Positions 5,225 through 11,970 of a stretch of 64,000 nucleotides of DNA are shown piece after piece. Position 1 is the stretch's first letter. Each line of letters starts with the position of its first letter. The notes under the pieces are model-generated. The model saw only the letters and a program-made list of their open reading frames with translations. It was not told the origin of the DNA and searched no databases. A program made the position numbers and the translations under genes. Source of the DNA: Mucilaginibacter flavus (lineage in GTDB: Bacteria > Bacteroidota > Bacteroidia > Sphingobacteriales > Sphingobacteriaceae); assembly GCF_030409315.1 (NCBI RefSeq), contig NZ_JAUFPS010000095.1, positions 1 through 64,000 on the forward strand, read 5' to 3'.

Positions 5225-6538
5225 CTATTGTTCTTCAATAACCAAGTGTGGGTAGAGGGCTTTTCCTTTGTTTACATCGAGCCCAATTTCATTTAAATAG
5301 CTTTTTAATAACTCAAATACCAATCCATTAGGTTGATCGCCAAAGTCTTTATATATATCGATATTGAATTTTATTCCGCTATGGTCAACCCAGGGTGAAT
5401 CCCTATAATTAAATTCGCTAAATTCTTTCGCTAATGCCTCAATGGATTGGTTTTTTGCAATTATTGCAGTTTTGTCAAGATGCAGAGTAGTGTTATCATT
5501 GGGTGCTGTTGTCGGTTTGATTTCCCTTCCTGGTATTTTCGTAATGATATAGCAATCACTTAATACCCGTTTAGTTGAAACCTCCACATTAAACATAAGT
5601 TTTAAATCTGAAAGCATGTGGGTATAAAAATATTCTAATGGAATTTTATTAGGCATTTGCAGTTCATAACAATATTCATTTTGCTGTGACCATTTTAAAA
5701 TTTCCTTTCCATGTTTTCTTTGTGAGTCATCTAATTTAGTATAAGCCGGAAAAAAGAACCGGGTAGAATCCTTGGTTTTGATATCTACTAAATCCCAATC
5801 CCGAATATCCATTGCCCTATGAAAAACGGCATCCCAAATAAGGTCTGTAGAAGGGCGGTTCCAAGCTAAAAACCTTATCTTTGTTTTTGTGGAATCAGGA
5901 AAGAAAACACCGCCATTCCCTATATTTTTGAATGGTGTTAAGACAGAACGGTATACAATTTCCGAATCTCTAACTACCAAATTTTTGCTCCAGTCGAACG
6001 TCAAGTCTTCCGCTTTGGTCTCTAATTTTTCTTTCCCAAGCATGAATGCAGTAATTGTTTCCTGACTAATTTCTTCATCGTCAGTTATTGCACGAATGAC
6101 TCCATCTTTATCAATCCAAACATTATGAGGTAATATCTTATGCGGAAAATATTTAATGAGTTTAGTATCGGCAGCCGAAAAGATCAAATTATTTAGGTCC
6201 CTATTGCGGCTTAAAAACTTTGACACATCCTCATCGCTTTGGTTGGTTACGCAGATCATATTAAATTTATCTGCATTATTCTTTTGTAAAGAATCTAAAA
6301 AAGGCATTTCTCTCACGCAGGGAACACACCAGGAAGCCCAAAAGTTGATAATCAGTAAGCCATTTTTATAAAGATCGGAGGCCTTCCTCGTCGTAACTTT
6401 TGTGTTTTTTAGATTGGAGAATATAAAATCAGGGATTTTGTCACCAATTTTTAAAGGCGCAATTTTTTTTTGCTGACTGAAGGTTGTTGTACTAAATAAA
6501 CATATCATACTTAGTATCAATAAGAATTTTAATTTCAT
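5225..6538 (-). CDS. TlpA-family thiol-disulfide reductase with C-terminal extension
   Basis: A 437-residue exported protein: signal peptide to about residue 21 (...STTTFSQ), then a TlpA/thioredoxin-like domain (about 30-170) with the active site WCVPC, cysteines 71 and 74, in the context NFWASWCVPCVREMPFLDS. The last ~260 residues have no domain I recognise but are typical of long TlpA proteins encoded beside SusC/SusD pairs. It is the last gene of a three-gene operon, 14 bases after the SusD gene. Expected location is the periplasm or the periplasmic face of a membrane, acting as a thiol oxidoreductase; the substrate is unknown. The DUF6520 peptide and MauE-like protein encoded opposite make a shared redox role attractive but unproven. 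Confidence 0.9.
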   Translation of the reverse strand: MKLKFLLILSMICLFSTTTFSQQKKIAPLKIGDKIPDFIFSNLKNTKVTTRKASDLYKNGLLIINFWASWCVPCVREMPFLDSLQKNNADKFNMICVTNQSDEDVSKFLSRNRDLNNLIFSAADTKLIKYFPHKILPHNVWIDKDGVIRAITDDEEISQETITAFMLGKEKLETKAEDLTFDWSKNLVVRDSEIVYRSVLTPFKNIGNGGVFFPDSTKTKIRFLAWNRPSTDLIWDAVFHRAMDIRDWDLVDIKTKDSTRFFFPAYTKLDDSQRKHGKEILKWSQQNEYCYELQMPNKIPLEYFYTHMLSDLKLMFNVEVSTKRVLSDCYIITKIPGREIKPTTAPNDNTTLHLDKTAIIAKNQSIEALAKEFSEFNYRDSPWVDHSGIKFNIDIYKDFGDQPNGLVFELLKSYLNEIGLDVNKGKALYPHLVIEEQ

Positions 6539-6552
6539 GATTTTTCAATTTT

Positions 6553-7920
6553 TTAATGATAGCCTGGATTTTGGATCATGTGGCTGTCGTAGGTAAGTTC
6601 ATTTAATGGTATCGGTAATAATTGTCCGGACGATAACCAGGTTGTTTTTTGCACCCCGATCACCTTATCGAGGTTGCCAGTTCTTTTAAGATCAAAAAAA
6701 CGGTTGCCCCATTCTCCAAAAAGCTCCACCCTTCTTTCCTGGGCAATAGCCTTTAGCATATCTGCCTTGTTATTCGCTAAAGTATTTGAAAGACCCGCCC
6801 TGGCTCTGATCGTGTTCACATCTTCTTCGGCACCTCCTGCACCTAACACCTTCCCGAGGTTCGCCCGTGCTTCAGCTCGTACCAAATAGGTGTCCGCAAT
6901 TCTGAGCAACGTCAAATACTCAGGATTACTGCTATTGGCCATCCTGTTTTTGTATTTGTTGAAATAAAAGTAAGTGGAAGTCCCAGAGATACCGGAGACG
7001 GTTGATGTTCCAATCCAGTTCGTATTCCGCAAGTCGCCGGGCTCGAAACTATTGATAAGGGATGAAGTTACCGGATACAAAGGAAGGTCAGCCGGTGATT
7101 GTGGAACAGTAAAAACCGCACTTGTCGTAAAGCCATCCTGATTCCATATTTGAAGAATGGTTTCGCTGCTGTTCGCCAGGAAGGTATTGGCACAAGACGT
7201 TAACGGTGTATAAAGACCAGAGTTGATTACAGCGCTCGCCTGAATTTCGGCTTGTGTCCAGTTATTCTGAAAAAGGTAAACTTTGGCCAGCAAAGCCATT
7301 GCCGACCAGGTATTTGCGCGAACCCTTCCGCCACCGGTGTACCCATTCGGTAGTTCTTTCCCGGCGGTAATCAAATCATTGATAACCTGTTGGTATACCG
7401 CCTGGCTGTTTGCCTGCGATGCCTTGGAGTTGACATTTACATCCGTTGTGAGTAAAACGGGAACGTTGCCGTAGATGTTCGCCAATAAAAAATAAGCATA
7501 GGCACGAAGAAACCTAGCCTCCCCGGTCAGATGGCCGCTAAAATTTGCAGGAATATTCCTGGATTTCGAGAGCTGTCCAATCAGGTCATTGCATTGGTAA
7601 ATTACAAAATATAGGTTTTGCCAGAGCGTAAGATCCGACGTGTTATTACTCGACACCGAACTACGGAGATATTCCAGATCCTGTTGCGTCGATCCGGTAT
7701 AATTCAGGTTATCCGAATAAAGATCCAGGTTGATGGACAGATTACTTTCAACGGTTTTATCCAGTTGTGCATATATATTTCCTATCGCGGCAGTGGCCGA
7801 ACTTGTATCGGCAAACACCTTGTCGGTGGTTAATTGATTTTTGGGACTTCCCACATCAATCAGCTTTTTACATCCCGATATCAAAAGGATGATCAAAAAG
7901 CAGTATAAGATACTTTTCAT
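6553..7920 (-). CDS. RagB/SusD-family nutrient-binding lipoprotein
   Basis: A 455-residue outer-membrane lipoprotein with lipobox LISGC (Cys17). Family signs are the TPR-like helical body, 'GEARFLRAYAYFLLANIYGNVPVLLTTD' (about residues 130-160), and the C-terminal 'IAQERRVELFGEWGNRFFDLKRTG' segment (about 390-415), both hallmarks of SusD. SusD proteins cap the SusC porin and bind its substrate. The gene lies 11 bases after the SusC gene. No polysaccharide-degrading enzyme is encoded nearby, so the ligand could be a peptide or another non-glycan substrate. Confidence 0.95.
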   Translation of the reverse strand: MKSILYCFLIILLISGCKKLIDVGSPKNQLTTDKVFADTSSATAAIGNIYAQLDKTVESNLSINLDLYSDNLNYTGSTQQDLEYLRSSVSSNNTSDLTLWQNLYFVIYQCNDLIGQLSKSRNIPANFSGHLTGEARFLRAYAYFLLANIYGNVPVLLTTDVNVNSKASQANSQAVYQQVINDLITAGKELPNGYTGGGRVRANTWSAMALLAKVYLFQNNWTQAEIQASAVINSGLYTPLTSCANTFLANSSETILQIWNQDGFTTSAVFTVPQSPADLPLYPVTSSLINSFEPGDLRNTNWIGTSTVSGISGTSTYFYFNKYKNRMANSSNPEYLTLLRIADTYLVRAEARANLGKVLGAGGAEEDVNTIRARAGLSNTLANNKADMLKAIAQERRVELFGEWGNRFFDLKRTGNLDKVIGVQKTTWLSSGQLLPIPLNELTYDSHMIQNPGYH

Positions 7921-7931
7921 GAGTTTAAGAT

Positions 7932-10922
7932 TTAAAGGGTGATCTGAATGCCAAGCGTAATCGTTCGCATTGGCTGAACATTTGCTGAAGCGCCACTCTC
8001 CGGGTCATATAATGCCGCGTTTCTATCCCAAATGGTCAGCAGATTCTCCGCCTGAGCATAAATACGAAGTGCTGTCAGCTTATTATTTTTTAACCAATCG
8101 GTTGGAAAAGTGTAGGATAAGGATACATTCTTCAAGCGGAAATAATTGGCTTTAAAAAAATTAGCAGACGACAGGGTATAATAAAAATCATTAAAACTTG
8201 TCGTTGCTTTGGGGACATTGGTTACATTTCCGGCAGCTTGCCAGCGGCTTAATGCGAGAGCAAAATCGTTTGAAAGAGATCCGGGTGGCAAAATTCCACC
8301 AGCTAACGAGTGTTTAGCGAATTGACCAGAAAAATCTAATTGGAAATTTTTATAGGTAAATGCGTTACTTATTCCTCCATAAAGACTTGGATTATTATCT
8401 CCAATTGTCTTATAGAAATTGTCAAAAGAAGGATTTGAGCTTGTTCCGCCGCCGGTAAGCTGATAAAGAGAAACGCCGGTTTGTGGATCAGCTCCGGCGT
8501 ATTTAAATCCATAAGCCCTGGAAATGCTTTCTCCTACGATATAGATATTTGCATACCCCGAATTCGCTAGCCCGGGAAAATTTACCAACCTATTTTTGGT
8601 AGTAGTAATATTAAAATTTGTTGACCACCTGAAATGCTGACCGACAATATTTTTAGTCAATAACTGAATCTCCCAACCCGTATTTTTTATTACTGCAGGT
8701 ATATTCGCTTCGTAGCTATTGAAACCTGTAAGGTATGGCAATGCATAGTTAACCAGTTGATTACCGCTTCTATTCTCAAAATAATCGGTCGTTAATAGTA
8801 TCCTATCTTTTAATAAACCTATCTCTAGACCCGCATCCAGTTTTTTATTTGATTCCCACCGAAAATTGGCGTTTGCGATTTTGGTCGGTGCCAGTCCGTT
8901 TACATTTTGATAAACATTATTCGAGGATTGATAAGTGGAAAGATATTGGTAGTCACTGATCTGGTCATTCCCTGTTATGCCAAAGCTTCCCCGCAACTTG
9001 CCATAGCTTAACCAATTTAAATTATTCTTAATAAAATGCTCATTACTAAATAGCCAGCCAATACCGACAGCGCCAAAATTTCCAAACTGATTACCCGGAC
9101 CGAACCTTGATGAACCGTCTCTCCGCACACTTGCATTAATAATATATCGGTCATCAAAGTTGTAGGTGATCCTTCCGAATACCGACACGTATTTATAGTC
9201 AATATCAGCATTGGATGGGTGCAATGTAGCAGCCGAAGCTAAATTTTCAAGGAGGCTTTCACTATTGAAATTTGTTGCAAAAATTGTTTCACTTTTTGTT
9301 TGTGTCTCCTGCCAGGTTCCTCCAAACAGCAAATCAAATTTTGATTTATTCATCTGAAGGTTATAGACTAGTTGCGGTTCCAGTAAGAATGATTTATTAC
9401 TATTGCTGCCGAATATCGTATAACTCACAGGCTGATATTGCGGGTCTACAGCGGCCTTTGGATTGACCATCACTTGCTTCATAGAAAGGTTGTTCAATCC
9501 AGTGCTTAATTTGATCTGGAGTCCCGGAAGTATTTTGTAACCGATTAGCGCATTGGTAATAATATTTTCAGTTTCAATATGGGATGTGTTTTTTACAGAA
9601 GCCAAAGGATTGTTTCCGTTTAAAAAATTGAGCGTTCCATCCGGATTGTAGATAGGGAAATCGGGGGGCAATAAAATATCACTGGATAAGGCAATCGCCG
9701 GATTTACCAAGTTGTTATTGTCTTGTGTATAGGAGGTAGACATGGAAATATTGAACTTACCATCCTGAGAAGTATGTTGTAAAGACATATGCACACCTCC
9801 TCGCTGGTATTGATTAGTCCCTGGCAATACACTGGACTCCGTTCTGTAATTGGCACCAATATCAAAATTAGACTGTGCATCGCCGCCTGAGATACTCGTC
9901 TGCACATTTGTTATATGCCCTGTACCCCCAAGAATATATTTTGCCCAATCGGTTGATTTCTGGGTATCCCAAATCGTAAGATCTGGGGCATATGATGGAG
10001 ACAATGGGTTTGAAGAAGGTATTAAGCCATCATTTATGAAGGCTTCCTTCCTAATTGCCAGGTAATCTGTCAAATTCAATAATTTCGGAAAATTTGCGAC
10101 TTTAGCTACCCCTTCATATAAGTTGAAATCTGTTTTGATTTTGCCATTAGCCCCTTTTTTTGTAGTGATCAATACGACACCATTAGCGCCCCGGCTGCCG
10201 TAAATTGCCGTCGCATCGGCATCCTTTAAAATCGATATACTTTCAATATCGCCCGGATTTATAGAATTTAATGGGCTGATAGCGCCATTGATACCAGAGC
10301 CAAGAGCAGAGTTGGCGACCAATGAAGAGGATAAATATGGTACGCCATCAATGATATAAAGTGGATTCGTGCCAGCGGTCAGTGATCCTGGTCCCCTTAT
10401 CTGAATAGCAATATCACCTCCGGGCAATCCATTATTTGTCTGAACGTAAACGCCGGGAGCTTTACCTGAAAGGGCAGATAGGACATTCGTTACGGGCTGT
10501 TGCTCAATATCCTTGGACGTAATCGTGGAAACGCTTCCTGTGTTCAGTCGTTTAGTCGTTGTCCCGTACCCTATGATCTGGACTTCATTTAACGATCCGG
10601 TCTCCGCCTTTAAGTGAATGGTCAAGGGCAACGGGATAGTGCCATTTATTGGAAGTTTAGTAGTTTGATAGCCGATAAAACTGACAATCAACGTATCTGT
10701 CGTGTTTTCTGCGATGTTTAAAATAAATTTACCATCAACGCCGGTAAGGCTAACGGTGTTCGAGGAATGTATTTTAATTGTAGCCATGGGTAACGGCTTT
10801 TCTAACTCGTCAACGACTATCCCGTTGATTATGGAACTGTATCCTGCTGTTGGCGTTTGTGCCGTTACGACAAAAATTGGGCAAAGCAAAGCCAGGACAC
10901 TATACAGTATCTTTTTTTTCAT
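7932..10922 (-). CDS. SusC/RagA-family TonB-linked outer-membrane transporter
   Basis: A 996-residue protein: signal peptide (about 1-21, ending VTAQ), carboxypeptidase-regulatory-like beta domain (about 30-115), plug domain (about 125-250, with 'SILKDADATAIYGSRGANGVVLITTKKG', diagnostic of SusC/RagA) and a C-terminal 22-strand-type barrel ending in TITLGIQITL. It imports a SusD-captured substrate with TonB energy. First gene of the operon with SusD and TlpA. Its length is at the short end for SusC but domain order is complete. No sigma/anti-sigma pair is encoded next to it, so control is probably by a distant regulator or the upstream region that holds a long inverted repeat. Confidence 0.96.
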   Translation of the reverse strand: MKKKILYSVLALLCPIFVVTAQTPTAGYSSIINGIVVDELEKPLPMATIKIHSSNTVSLTGVDGKFILNIAENTTDTLIVSFIGYQTTKLPINGTIPLPLTIHLKAETGSLNEVQIIGYGTTTKRLNTGSVSTITSKDIEQQPVTNVLSALSGKAPGVYVQTNNGLPGGDIAIQIRGPGSLTAGTNPLYIIDGVPYLSSSLVANSALGSGINGAISPLNSINPGDIESISILKDADATAIYGSRGANGVVLITTKKGANGKIKTDFNLYEGVAKVANFPKLLNLTDYLAIRKEAFINDGLIPSSNPLSPSYAPDLTIWDTQKSTDWAKYILGGTGHITNVQTSISGGDAQSNFDIGANYRTESSVLPGTNQYQRGGVHMSLQHTSQDGKFNISMSTSYTQDNNNLVNPAIALSSDILLPPDFPIYNPDGTLNFLNGNNPLASVKNTSHIETENIITNALIGYKILPGLQIKLSTGLNNLSMKQVMVNPKAAVDPQYQPVSYTIFGSNSNKSFLLEPQLVYNLQMNKSKFDLLFGGTWQETQTKSETIFATNFNSESLLENLASAATLHPSNADIDYKYVSVFGRITYNFDDRYIINASVRRDGSSRFGPGNQFGNFGAVGIGWLFSNEHFIKNNLNWLSYGKLRGSFGITGNDQISDYQYLSTYQSSNNVYQNVNGLAPTKIANANFRWESNKKLDAGLEIGLLKDRILLTTDYFENRSGNQLVNYALPYLTGFNSYEANIPAVIKNTGWEIQLLTKNIVGQHFRWSTNFNITTTKNRLVNFPGLANSGYANIYIVGESISRAYGFKYAGADPQTGVSLYQLTGGGTSSNPSFDNFYKTIGDNNPSLYGGISNAFTYKNFQLDFSGQFAKHSLAGGILPPGSLSNDFALALSRWQAAGNVTNVPKATTSFNDFYYTLSSANFFKANYFRLKNVSLSYTFPTDWLKNNKLTALRIYAQAENLLTIWDRNAALYDPESGASANVQPMRTITLGIQITL

Positions 10923-10962: not shown

Positions 10963-11014
10963 AATAATGGCGTCCGAAAAGTTTAACTATTAACTGATCC
11001 CGGACGCCATTATT
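10963..11014. repeat. long inverted repeat between small gene and susC-like gene
   Basis: Perfect 14-bp arms AATAATGGCGTCCG (10963-10976) and CGGACGCCATTATT (11001-11014) enclose a 24-base loop. It lies downstream of the gene 11061-11342 and 41 bases upstream of the SusC start, both on the minus strand. It could terminate the upstream transcript (a T run follows about 15-20 bases further on) or fold in a leader of the SusC mRNA. The wide loop is unusual for a plain terminator. Confidence 0.6.
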
Positions 11015-11060: not shown

Positions 11061-11342
11061 TTACTTGCTCTCATCTGATTTTTTAATTTGAGTTTCAGAT
11101 AGGGTTTTAAGCAATTCGGCATGATGATAAATTTTCCCGATTAAATCGGGCAGGGAAGACAAGTTAGATTTCCCATGATCCTGAATTTTTTGCAGATCTA
11201 ATCCTTTTTCCAAAAGAGCTTTGGTAAACCAATCATCTAATTCCTGCTGGAATTGCTCAAAAGGAACCTGGTAAAACCGTTCCATAATTTCGGTCATTGA
11301 ACCGAAATCAAGCTGTTTTTTCTTTGGCTGTGATTTTTCCAT
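11061..11342 (-). CDS. small hypothetical protein
   Basis: A 93-residue, charged, helical protein with no signal peptide or membrane segment (MEKSQPKKKQLDFGSMTEIM...). It contains 'YQVPFEQFQQELDDWFTKALLEKGL' and ends in a Lys/Ser-rich tail. I do not recognise a family. The start codon lies about 30 bases after the 3' end of the structured RNA at 11372-11549 on the same strand, so the two may share a transcript, or the RNA may act as a leader for this gene. Confidence 0.6.
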   Translation of the reverse strand: MEKSQPKKKQLDFGSMTEIMERFYQVPFEQFQQELDDWFTKALLEKGLDLQKIQDHGKSNLSSLPDLIGKIYHHAELLKTLSETQIKKSDESK

Positions 11343-11371
11343 TTTTAATGCTTTTAAGAGCCATTAATATG

Positions 11372-11549
11372 GAGTCTGCTCGGAAGGATTTGCACTATAA
11401 TACTACAGGCATGGGTCCCAACTTATTGTTCCCGGTGGGTTGACACGCCCAGAGCACTAATAAGAAGGGATACCCATACCTGTAGCATGGGCATTCCAGC
11501 TTCTCATCTTGTGCTCATTTGAAAGTGTCAATTTCCGGGAGCAAGACTC
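11372..11549 (-). ncRNA. structured RNA, candidate 6S-type RNA
   Basis: Read on the minus strand this ~178-base stretch folds into a long, bulged closing helix: GAGTC-t-TGCTC-cc-GGAA-ATT-ga-CACT at the 5' end pairs with AGTG-ca-AAT-cc-TTCC-GAGCA-GACTC at the 3' end. Inside is a long hairpin (GAGCAC, TGAGAAG and GCCCAT arms pairing with ATGGGT, CTTCTTA and GTGCTC) and a second region around 11405-11450. An alternative pairing CTACAGGTATGGGT / ACCCATGCCTGTAG also exists. Non-Watson-Crick positions are G-U pairs only when read on the minus strand, which fixes the strand. Size and the long bulged closing helix resemble 6S RNA; the Bacteroidota 6S-Flavo family is the first candidate. No protein frame explains it. 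Confidence 0.62.
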
Positions 11550-11581
11550 AAAGCGAATGCTTCAGTATTTTTGAAGATTCG

Positions 11582-11589
11582 CAAATTTA
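11582..11589 (-). promoter_or_regulatory. -7 box for the structured RNA (TAAATTTG)
   Basis: On the minus strand TAAATTTG matches TAnnTTTG exactly and sits 33 bases before the 5' arm of the closing helix of the structured RNA. A start a few bases downstream would give an RNA of about 200 bases. An extra hairpin (GCGAAT...ATTCGC, 11551-11580) lies between box and helix. No -33 TTTG was found at the usual spacing. Confidence 0.45.
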
Positions 11590-11635
11590 ATATTTACGCT
11601 CTGATTTACTTTATTTCAATCAAATATAAGTAAAA

Positions 11636-11657
11636 ATTACGTCGCACAAGACGTAAT
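11636..11657. promoter_or_regulatory. dyad operator upstream of XRE regulator
   Basis: A perfect inverted repeat ATTACGTC-GCACAA-GACGTAAT (8-bp arms, 6-base spacer) ends 31 bases before the ATG of the XRE-type regulator. Size and position suit an autoregulatory operator for a dimeric helix-turn-helix protein; this is an inference from symmetry and position. Confidence 0.55.
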
Positions 11658-11688
11658 ATATTAAATTTTATCGTCCTCTATTTGGTTT

Positions 11689-11970
11689 ATGGCAAAACCA
11701 TACCGTAATCAGGAATTTATAGATCAGATTGTAAAAAAAATCGCTGAAATAAGAGACGGTAAAGGAATTGTACAAGAAGATATTGTAGATAGAACTGGTT
11801 TTACACAGAAGCAAGTTTGGACTTTACTTAACGGAAAAAGTAATCCCACAATATCAAGTTTAGAAGCCATCTGTAAGGCTTTAGAGATACATCCAAGGGA
11901 CCTTTTAGATTTTGATTTCGAAATCCCCAAAAATCCTCCACTTCGCAAAGACAGAAAAAGTAAAAGCTAA
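11689..11970 (+). CDS. XRE-family helix-turn-helix regulator
   Basis: A 93-residue protein that is almost entirely a Cro/C1-type helix-turn-helix: 'IVQEDIVDRTGFTQKQVWTLLNGKSNPTISSLEAICKALEIHPRDLLDF' (about residues 28-78) shows the usual five-helix pattern with the recognition helix around 'TQKQVWTLLNG'. The tail is Lys/Arg/Pro-rich. No toxin gene is next to it: downstream is a convergent TetR gene whose stop codon overlaps its own end by 4 bases, and upstream is the structured RNA. A stand-alone regulator is therefore more likely than an antitoxin. The dyad at 11636-11657 is its likely operator. Confidence 0.85.
   Translation: MAKPYRNQEFIDQIVKKIAEIRDGKGIVQEDIVDRTGFTQKQVWTLLNGKSNPTISSLEAICKALEIHPRDLLDFDFEIPKNPPLRKDRKSKS

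Follow-up and report, generated by a model that had tools for sequence, protein, structure and literature searches.

A conserved RNA with two competing folds, a candidate leader of SusC/SusD-type operons in Bacteroidota

The locus and its gene neighborhood

The window analyzed here, a stretch of 64,000 nucleotides from Mucilaginibacter flavus (contig NZ_JAUFPS010000095.1, positions 1 to 64,000), encodes on its minus strand a SusC/RagA-type outer-membrane protein, a SusD-like protein and a TlpA-like thioredoxin, preceded by a small-protein gene and a structured segment, beyond which lies a divergent gene for a small XRE-type protein (Table 1). The initial annotation had described the segment as a structured minus-strand RNA, a candidate for the 6S type, or alternatively as the leader of the gene behind it.

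Table 1. Features of the RNA and of its neighborhood in the window
Feature	Position	Strand	Remarks
Conserved RNA (candidate leader)	11403..11582	-	Covariance-model span, P1 to Tb end
P1 hairpin GCGAAUCUUC..GAAGCAUUCGC	11553..11582	-	Highest sequence conservation; double changes in 10/10 pairs
P2 5' strand	11535..11542	-	Pairs with 11428-11435; compensatory changes along whole helix
P3 5' strand UUGACAC	11525..11531	-	Pairs with GUGUCAA 11440-11446; 7/7 pairs changed on both sides
P4 5' strand	11511..11516	-	Pairs with 11452-11457; covariation counts
P5 5' strand AUGAGAAG (outer strand 1)	11500..11507	-	Pairs with 11460-11467; 96.5 % of cells paired
P6 5' strand GCCCAUGC (inner strand 1)	11485..11492	-	99.1 % of cells paired
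Strand 2 (Ta)	11459..11485	-	Partner is P5/P6 5' strands or Tb; covariation for both pairings
Strand 3 (Tb) AAUAAGUUGGGACCCAUGCCUGUAG	11403..11427	-	With Ta, terminator-like stem; core 98.2 % paired
'PK' 5' strand GUCUU (AUCUCG in most relatives)	11543..11547	-	31 double-change cells
'PK' 3' strand AAGAU (CGAGAU in most relatives)	11506..11510	-	Present in folds forced into Ta:Tb state
Downstream strand GCAGACUC	11372..11379	-	Can pair with GAGUCUUGC (11541-11549); close relatives only (L003-L010); in MFE fold
-7 box TAAATTTG	11582..11589	-	Overlaps RNA 5' end
Divergent small XRE-type HTH gene	11689..11970	+	HTH_26 1.6e-10; constant upstream neighbor, same place in most homologous loci
Small-protein gene, 93 aa	11061..11342	-	Follows RNA in Mucilaginibacter; no Pfam/NCBIfam match
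SusC/RagA TonB-linked outer-membrane protein gene	7932..10922	-	TIGR04056 1.5e-208
SusD-like gene	6553-7920	-	Follows SusC/RagA gene
TlpA-like thioredoxin gene	5225-6538	-	Redoxin/AhpC-TSA match

The first large gene on the strand of the RNA encodes a SusC-like protein (Plug + CarbopepD_reg_2) in 49 of 61 cases, an ECF sigma factor in 7 and a TlpA-like protein (AhpC-TSA/Redoxin) in 3, so that by gene position 59 of the 61 same-strand downstream genes belong to these three types. SusC is followed by a SusD-like gene and then, at loci with an assignable next gene, by one for a peptidase, either M16 or of the S9 prolyl oligopeptidase type; these peptidase genes suggest that the operons function in peptide import. 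In Mucilaginibacter a family of ~90-aa proteins without a database match is encoded behind the RNA, and the structure model of the window's member is of low confidence (mean pLDDT 60.7). At some loci (L194, L195, L199 and L200) a seemingly unrelated small protein occupies its site. We rejected the small protein as a partner of the RNA, as it does not directly follow the RNA in the Flavobacterium loci. Outside Mucilaginibacter the first gene mostly lies 100-600 nt further downstream.

Several smaller elements are found between the RNA and susC. 1) In the window a hairpin whose 14-base arms (AATAATGGCGTCCG/CGGACGCCATTATT) match perfectly occupies positions 10966-11014 between the small gene and susC, and it recurs in many relatives with arms that vary yet stay complementary and a loop that retains CAGTTAATAGTTAA. 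2) A tiny reading-frame motif, NTG CCT RTG nnn TAA (core GCCTRTG), is present at 33 of 62 loci versus 2.1 +/- 1.4 in shuffles, often 110-150 nt ahead of susC and also in Flavobacterium (e.g. L060, L069, L101, L123). 3) At L081, L074, L119, L062, L102 and others the 5' element of the RNA recurs, inverted and imperfect (TTGCGA..GAAG..GCTTTGAA), no more than ~40 nt behind the RNA. Long-range pairing with this copy could enclose the entire leader in one helix, for which z is below -2 at 45 of 142 loci, most strongly outside Mucilaginibacter; we count this helix as an extra feature, outside the core of the RNA.

On the upstream side, a divergent ORF starts at 65 of 76 named loci, mostly 90-150 nt off, and of the 57 proteins scanned HTH_3 was recovered in 40 and HTH_26 in 39; these proteins are very diverse, with a mean column identity of 13 %. 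The -7 element of Bacteroidota is TAnnTTTG. Just such a box had been noted immediately upstream of the RNA, and the homologues uphold it: in 91 of 143 the first base of the motif lies precisely 7 nt ahead of the RNA start, and in 104 of 143 the motif overlaps this start. In the interval from the RNA to the operon it occurs at 4 of 62 loci versus 7.5 expected, i.e. not above chance, and no fixed -33 element was seen. The best palindromes upstream of the RNA score slightly higher than those in shuffles (5.49 versus 4.81); locus-specific operators for XRE are our guess. In the window a perfect palindrome, ATTACGTC-GCACAA-GACGTAAT (11636-11657), lies between the XRE gene and the RNA and is a candidate XRE operator.

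Conservation and two competing folds of the RNA

Read on the minus strand, positions 11372-11589 have a minimum free energy (MFE) of -87.6 kcal/mol versus -52.2 +/- 4.2 in 200 dinucleotide shuffles, none of which folds as well (z -8.35). The plus strand is also well folded (z -7.07), and hence folding strength alone leaves the strand undecided. In the homologues, one-sided changes at paired positions give G-U pairs in the minus-strand reading, as at one position of the Ta:Tb helix with 24 U-G and 40 C-G pairs, thereby supporting the minus strand. The fold, the homologues and the compensatory changes described below strongly bear out the claim of a minus-strand RNA under selection, though its conserved extent, 11403-11582, is shorter than the 11372-11589 first given.

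In blastn searches 17 of 100 relatives, all of the same genus, gave matches. A covariance model (R1) built from 16 copies, including the window sequence, scores the window at 185.5 bits (E 2.6e-39). It recovers the RNA in 56 of the 101 congeneric genomes sampled, with 1-4 copies each, and, when 395 genomes are drawn evenly from Bacteroidota, in 41 of them (16 of 170 genera) with up to 6 copies. A second model (R2), built from other loci only and without the window copy, recovers that copy, the single one in its genome, with an E of 5.3e-26, and matches 46 of the 395 genomes (19 of 170 genera; 0-6 copies per genome). Further, a 22-base pattern from the 5' element matched at least 120 stretches, including ones in Flavobacterium, Niabella, Terrimonas, Salegentibacter, Zunongwangia, Leeuwenhoekiella and Arenibacter, and R1 matches all 80 of the loci fetched from these. 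We rejected a mobile or repeated element, given the single copy in the genome and the lack of an exact 22-mer in viral contigs and of similar plasmid sequences. One truncated copy (L011, G043:C25:320171-320224) retains the 5' element alone, and by eye a gene resembling a Bacteroidota-type tyrosine recombinase follows it within ~400 bases, which looks like the disruption of the locus by an integrated element.

From 5' to 3' the RNA consists of the P1 hairpin, the joining sequence UUUGAGUCU, helices P2-P6 stacked as a single interrupted long hairpin, and the Tb tail. Its ends form no closing stem: the P1 hairpin stands separately at the 5' end and the 3' tail is free or paired with Ta. A covariation analysis, as proposed with the initial annotation, was made for this fold. 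Compensatory changes were seen in all but two of its 46 helix pairs (44) across 70 copies from Mucilaginibacter, with 578 double-change cells versus 162 in shuffles, and 89.4 % of cells are paired versus 39-45 % when slid; in the broad alignment set 28 pairs have double changes (379 cells versus 116 in shuffles). As these alignments were fitted to the same fold they are biased towards it; the margin is nonetheless very large.

The Ta:Tb and 'PK' helices are absent from the model and were counted afterwards on the identical alignments. These counts showed that: 1) Ta:Tb is paired in 85 % of cells, with double changes in 14 of 20 pairs and 94 double-change cells versus 33 in shuffles, its core GGYRUGG:CCAYGCC being 98.2 % paired. 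2) The 'PK' helix AUCUCG/CGAGAU (GUCUU/AAGAU in the window) is 88.7 % paired, with 31 double-change cells versus 14 and 0 of 500 shuffles as high. 3) In the broad set, the two helices counted jointly are 93.9 % paired, with 11 double-change pairs versus 4.3 in shuffles. Ta:Tb is incompatible with P5 and P6, since all three occupy the strand 11459-11485; thus an antiterminator-like helix (P5/P6) and Ta:Tb are mutually exclusive, and this exclusion is conserved with covariation on both sides. The three pairs quoted in the initial annotation are real, and their mismatches are indeed G-U on the minus strand only; however, they are parts of two folds which cannot coexist. The pair CUACAGGUAUGGGU/ACCCAUGCCUGUAG (Ta:Tb) excludes both UGAGAAG/CUUCUUA (P5) and GCCCAU/AUGGGU (P6), and hence two competing folds had been mixed. 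We conclude from the covariation that one RNA carries two selected folds, namely P2-P6 or AUCUCG/CGAGAU together with Ta:Tb.

When Ta:Tb is forced, the fold lies a median of 6.9 kcal/mol above the MFE (-68.8 versus -73.2 for the window copy), and the two states are therefore close in energy. Most of the forced folds listed as examples also contain AUCUCG/CGAGAU, and GUCUU/AAGAU as a pseudoknot was dropped as first choice, as this helix fits the Ta:Tb state without crossing. Ta:Tb is part of the MFE fold in just 8 of 121 copies, the long hairpin being more stable in nearly all. A complement of Tb further downstream was detected at 46 of 142 loci at p <= 0.05 (~7 expected) and at 26 at p <= 0.01; at several Mucilaginibacter loci it lies just before the start codon of the small gene, ending roughly 10-20 nt ahead of the AUG. 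Such a strand 4 would complete a 1-2-3-4 arrangement in which 1:2 and 3:4 are opposed to 2:3.

A U-rich tract, counted as 6 or more T among 8 positions around the end of the model, follows Ta:Tb in 106 of 143 copies, and this stem with its tract, placed before the operon, thus resembles an intrinsic terminator, for which a loop as long as that of Ta:Tb is unusual. Outside Mucilaginibacter the terminator region of most members reads ..CCACGCCUUUUU. In the clade of the window, the sequence after Ta:Tb (UAUUAUAGUGC, tail CCAUGCCUGUAG-UAUUAUAGUG) is a poor U-tract, despite which Ta:Tb is even longer (CUACAGGUAUGGGU/ACCCAUGCCUGUAG).

A candidate attenuator and its alternatives

Judged from sequence and gene order, the RNA is most likely the 5' leader of its operon. 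What the initial annotation offered as its second choice, a leader of the downstream gene, is hence the better reading, refined in that the RNA heads the whole SusC/SusD operon and holds a conserved conformational switch; as a leader it probably turns outer-membrane importers on and off. More specifically, we favor, with reasonable though far from full confidence, a 5' leader of a SusC/SusD-type import operon that works as a bistable transcription attenuator. The promoter with the -7 box over the RNA start would begin the operon transcript, probably under the control of the divergent XRE protein. In the first state strand 1 would hold strand 2 within the long hairpin P2-P6, and RNA polymerase would read into the operon; in the second, Ta:Tb would join strand 2 to strand 3, accompanied by the AUCUCG/CGAGAU helix. 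In most members the U residues after Ta:Tb would then end transcription before the operon. Some signal would shift the balance between the two states; as the long hairpin is more stable almost everywhere, termination would need a trigger. The conserved P1 and joining sequences could be a sensor. In the clade of the window, where the U-tract is weak, the output may be translational or may lie in RNA processing.

The arrangement recalls trp-like 1-2-3-4 attenuators and terminator riboswitches, with which the RNA shares the leader position, the mutual exclusion of helices 1:2 and 2:3, in many copies a further helix 3:4, the U-tract behind the terminator stem and a metabolic or transport operon downstream. 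It differs from them in apparently having no conserved leader peptide inside and in having no known ligand core, in its much longer and strongly paired antiterminator and in adjoining a divergent XRE gene. A leader peptide inside the RNA seems unlikely: read by eye, the frame AUGAUAAGU.. has stops that close it, or no start, in several relatives, and the mini-ORF motif of 33 of 62 loci lies downstream of the RNA.

Bacteroidota take up nutrients chiefly through SusC/SusD importers, and for many of the operons encoding these the control is poorly understood. A conserved RNA switch heading a subset of them, those with S9/M16 peptidase or thioredoxin-like genes and a divergent XRE gene, offers a handle for tests in which the two conformations, the mutations and the output are all defined. 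A tentative extension, to which we give only limited credence, is that the RNA represents a new signal-sensing leader class (a riboswitch or protein-sensing attenuator) in many Bacteroidota, in which an XRE-controlled promoter and a four-strand switch would choose among paralogous SusC/SusD-peptidase importers.

The main rival is an independent sRNA reaching from the -7 box to the Ta:Tb terminator, which would act in trans or titrate a protein and would owe its position before SusC to co-inheritance with the XRE gene. The RNA does have a promoter box of its own, a terminator-like 3' end in 106 of 143 copies and a strong fold. However, it lies nearly always in the sense direction directly before the SusC, ECF sigma or TlpA-like gene (59/61), no other consensus promoter stands ahead of those genes, an sRNA would have no need of a conserved competing antiterminator-like fold, and up to 6 copies occur per genome. 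As it leaves the operon linkage, the absent second promoter and the competing fold unexplained, we regard the sRNA as rather unlikely.

Alternatively, a cis-acting leader could affect translation or RNA processing: on read-through, strand 3 would pair immediately ahead of the first gene's start codon (in Mucilaginibacter, that of the small-protein gene) and hide the ribosome site, and formation of Ta:Tb would free it. The strand 3 complement (46/142 loci at p <= 0.05), which in several Mucilaginibacter loci falls near the AUG of the small gene, and the weak U-tract in the window's clade are in line with this, but outside Mucilaginibacter the first gene is mostly 100-600 nt away and the U-tract is good; we hold it improbable. 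A DNA-level element with inverted repeats that only resemble RNA stems, either an operator for XRE or a promoter segment able to invert, would accommodate the palindromes upstream of the RNA and the imperfect inverted 5'-element copy after the terminator in many Flavobacteriia loci, but is very improbable in view of the compensatory changes with G-U pairs on one strand, the two exclusive pairings of the same strand and the constant relative orientation of RNA, XRE gene and operon in the loci examined. An invertible segment in particular was rejected, with no inverted allele seen in these loci.

Relation to known structured RNAs

Across the entire window no match to an Rfam family passes the cut-off of that family, a permissive scan of 11200-11800 gave only chance matches to eukaryotic families, and five homologous loci likewise have no Rfam match. 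The 6S and 6S-Flavo models, with which the 6S proposal was to be checked, find nothing in the window. In a set of 21 genomes, made up of this one together with relatives from its genus and class, RF00013 gives nothing at E <= 1, E. coli and other controls being matched; RF01685 (6S-Flavo) has none in the window or the genome, a genome search that is also without a match in the control genomes. The length of ~180 nt and the long bulged hairpin are shared with 6S RNA and 6S-Flavo, but copy number and synteny differ: in place of a single housekeeping copy in nearly all genomes, the RNA is patchy (56/101 genomes in the genus with 1-4 copies, 41/395 in the phylum with up to 6; 0-6 copies overall) and tied to SusC-type operons. 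Moreover, 6S RNA has a large central bubble closed by a stem between its two ends, and the ends of the RNA here form no such stem. Hence, a 6S or 6S-like regulator of RNA polymerase is the least credible reading, and this part of the initial annotation has to be given up.

By these scans the RNA belongs to no Rfam 15 family, and it adds a family absent from that release. We found no earlier description in the literature; the supplementary tables on F. psychrophilum (PMC9723704) may list a copy without analysis. That transcriptome study reports many structured 5' elements without Rfam matches, as well as the Flavo-1 motif, a structured element of Flavobacteriaceae (PMC9723704). Like Flavo-1, the RNA is a structured element of Bacteroidota, but the window and the five homologous loci match no Rfam family. 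The same source describes a cobalamin riboswitch before a TonB-dependent transporter gene in Bacteroidota, e.g. F. psychrophilum THC0290_1776 (PMC9723704). The RNA, which matches no Rfam family, the cobalamin riboswitch included, differs from it in this respect and resembles it as a structured leader of a gene for an outer-membrane TonB-dependent transporter.
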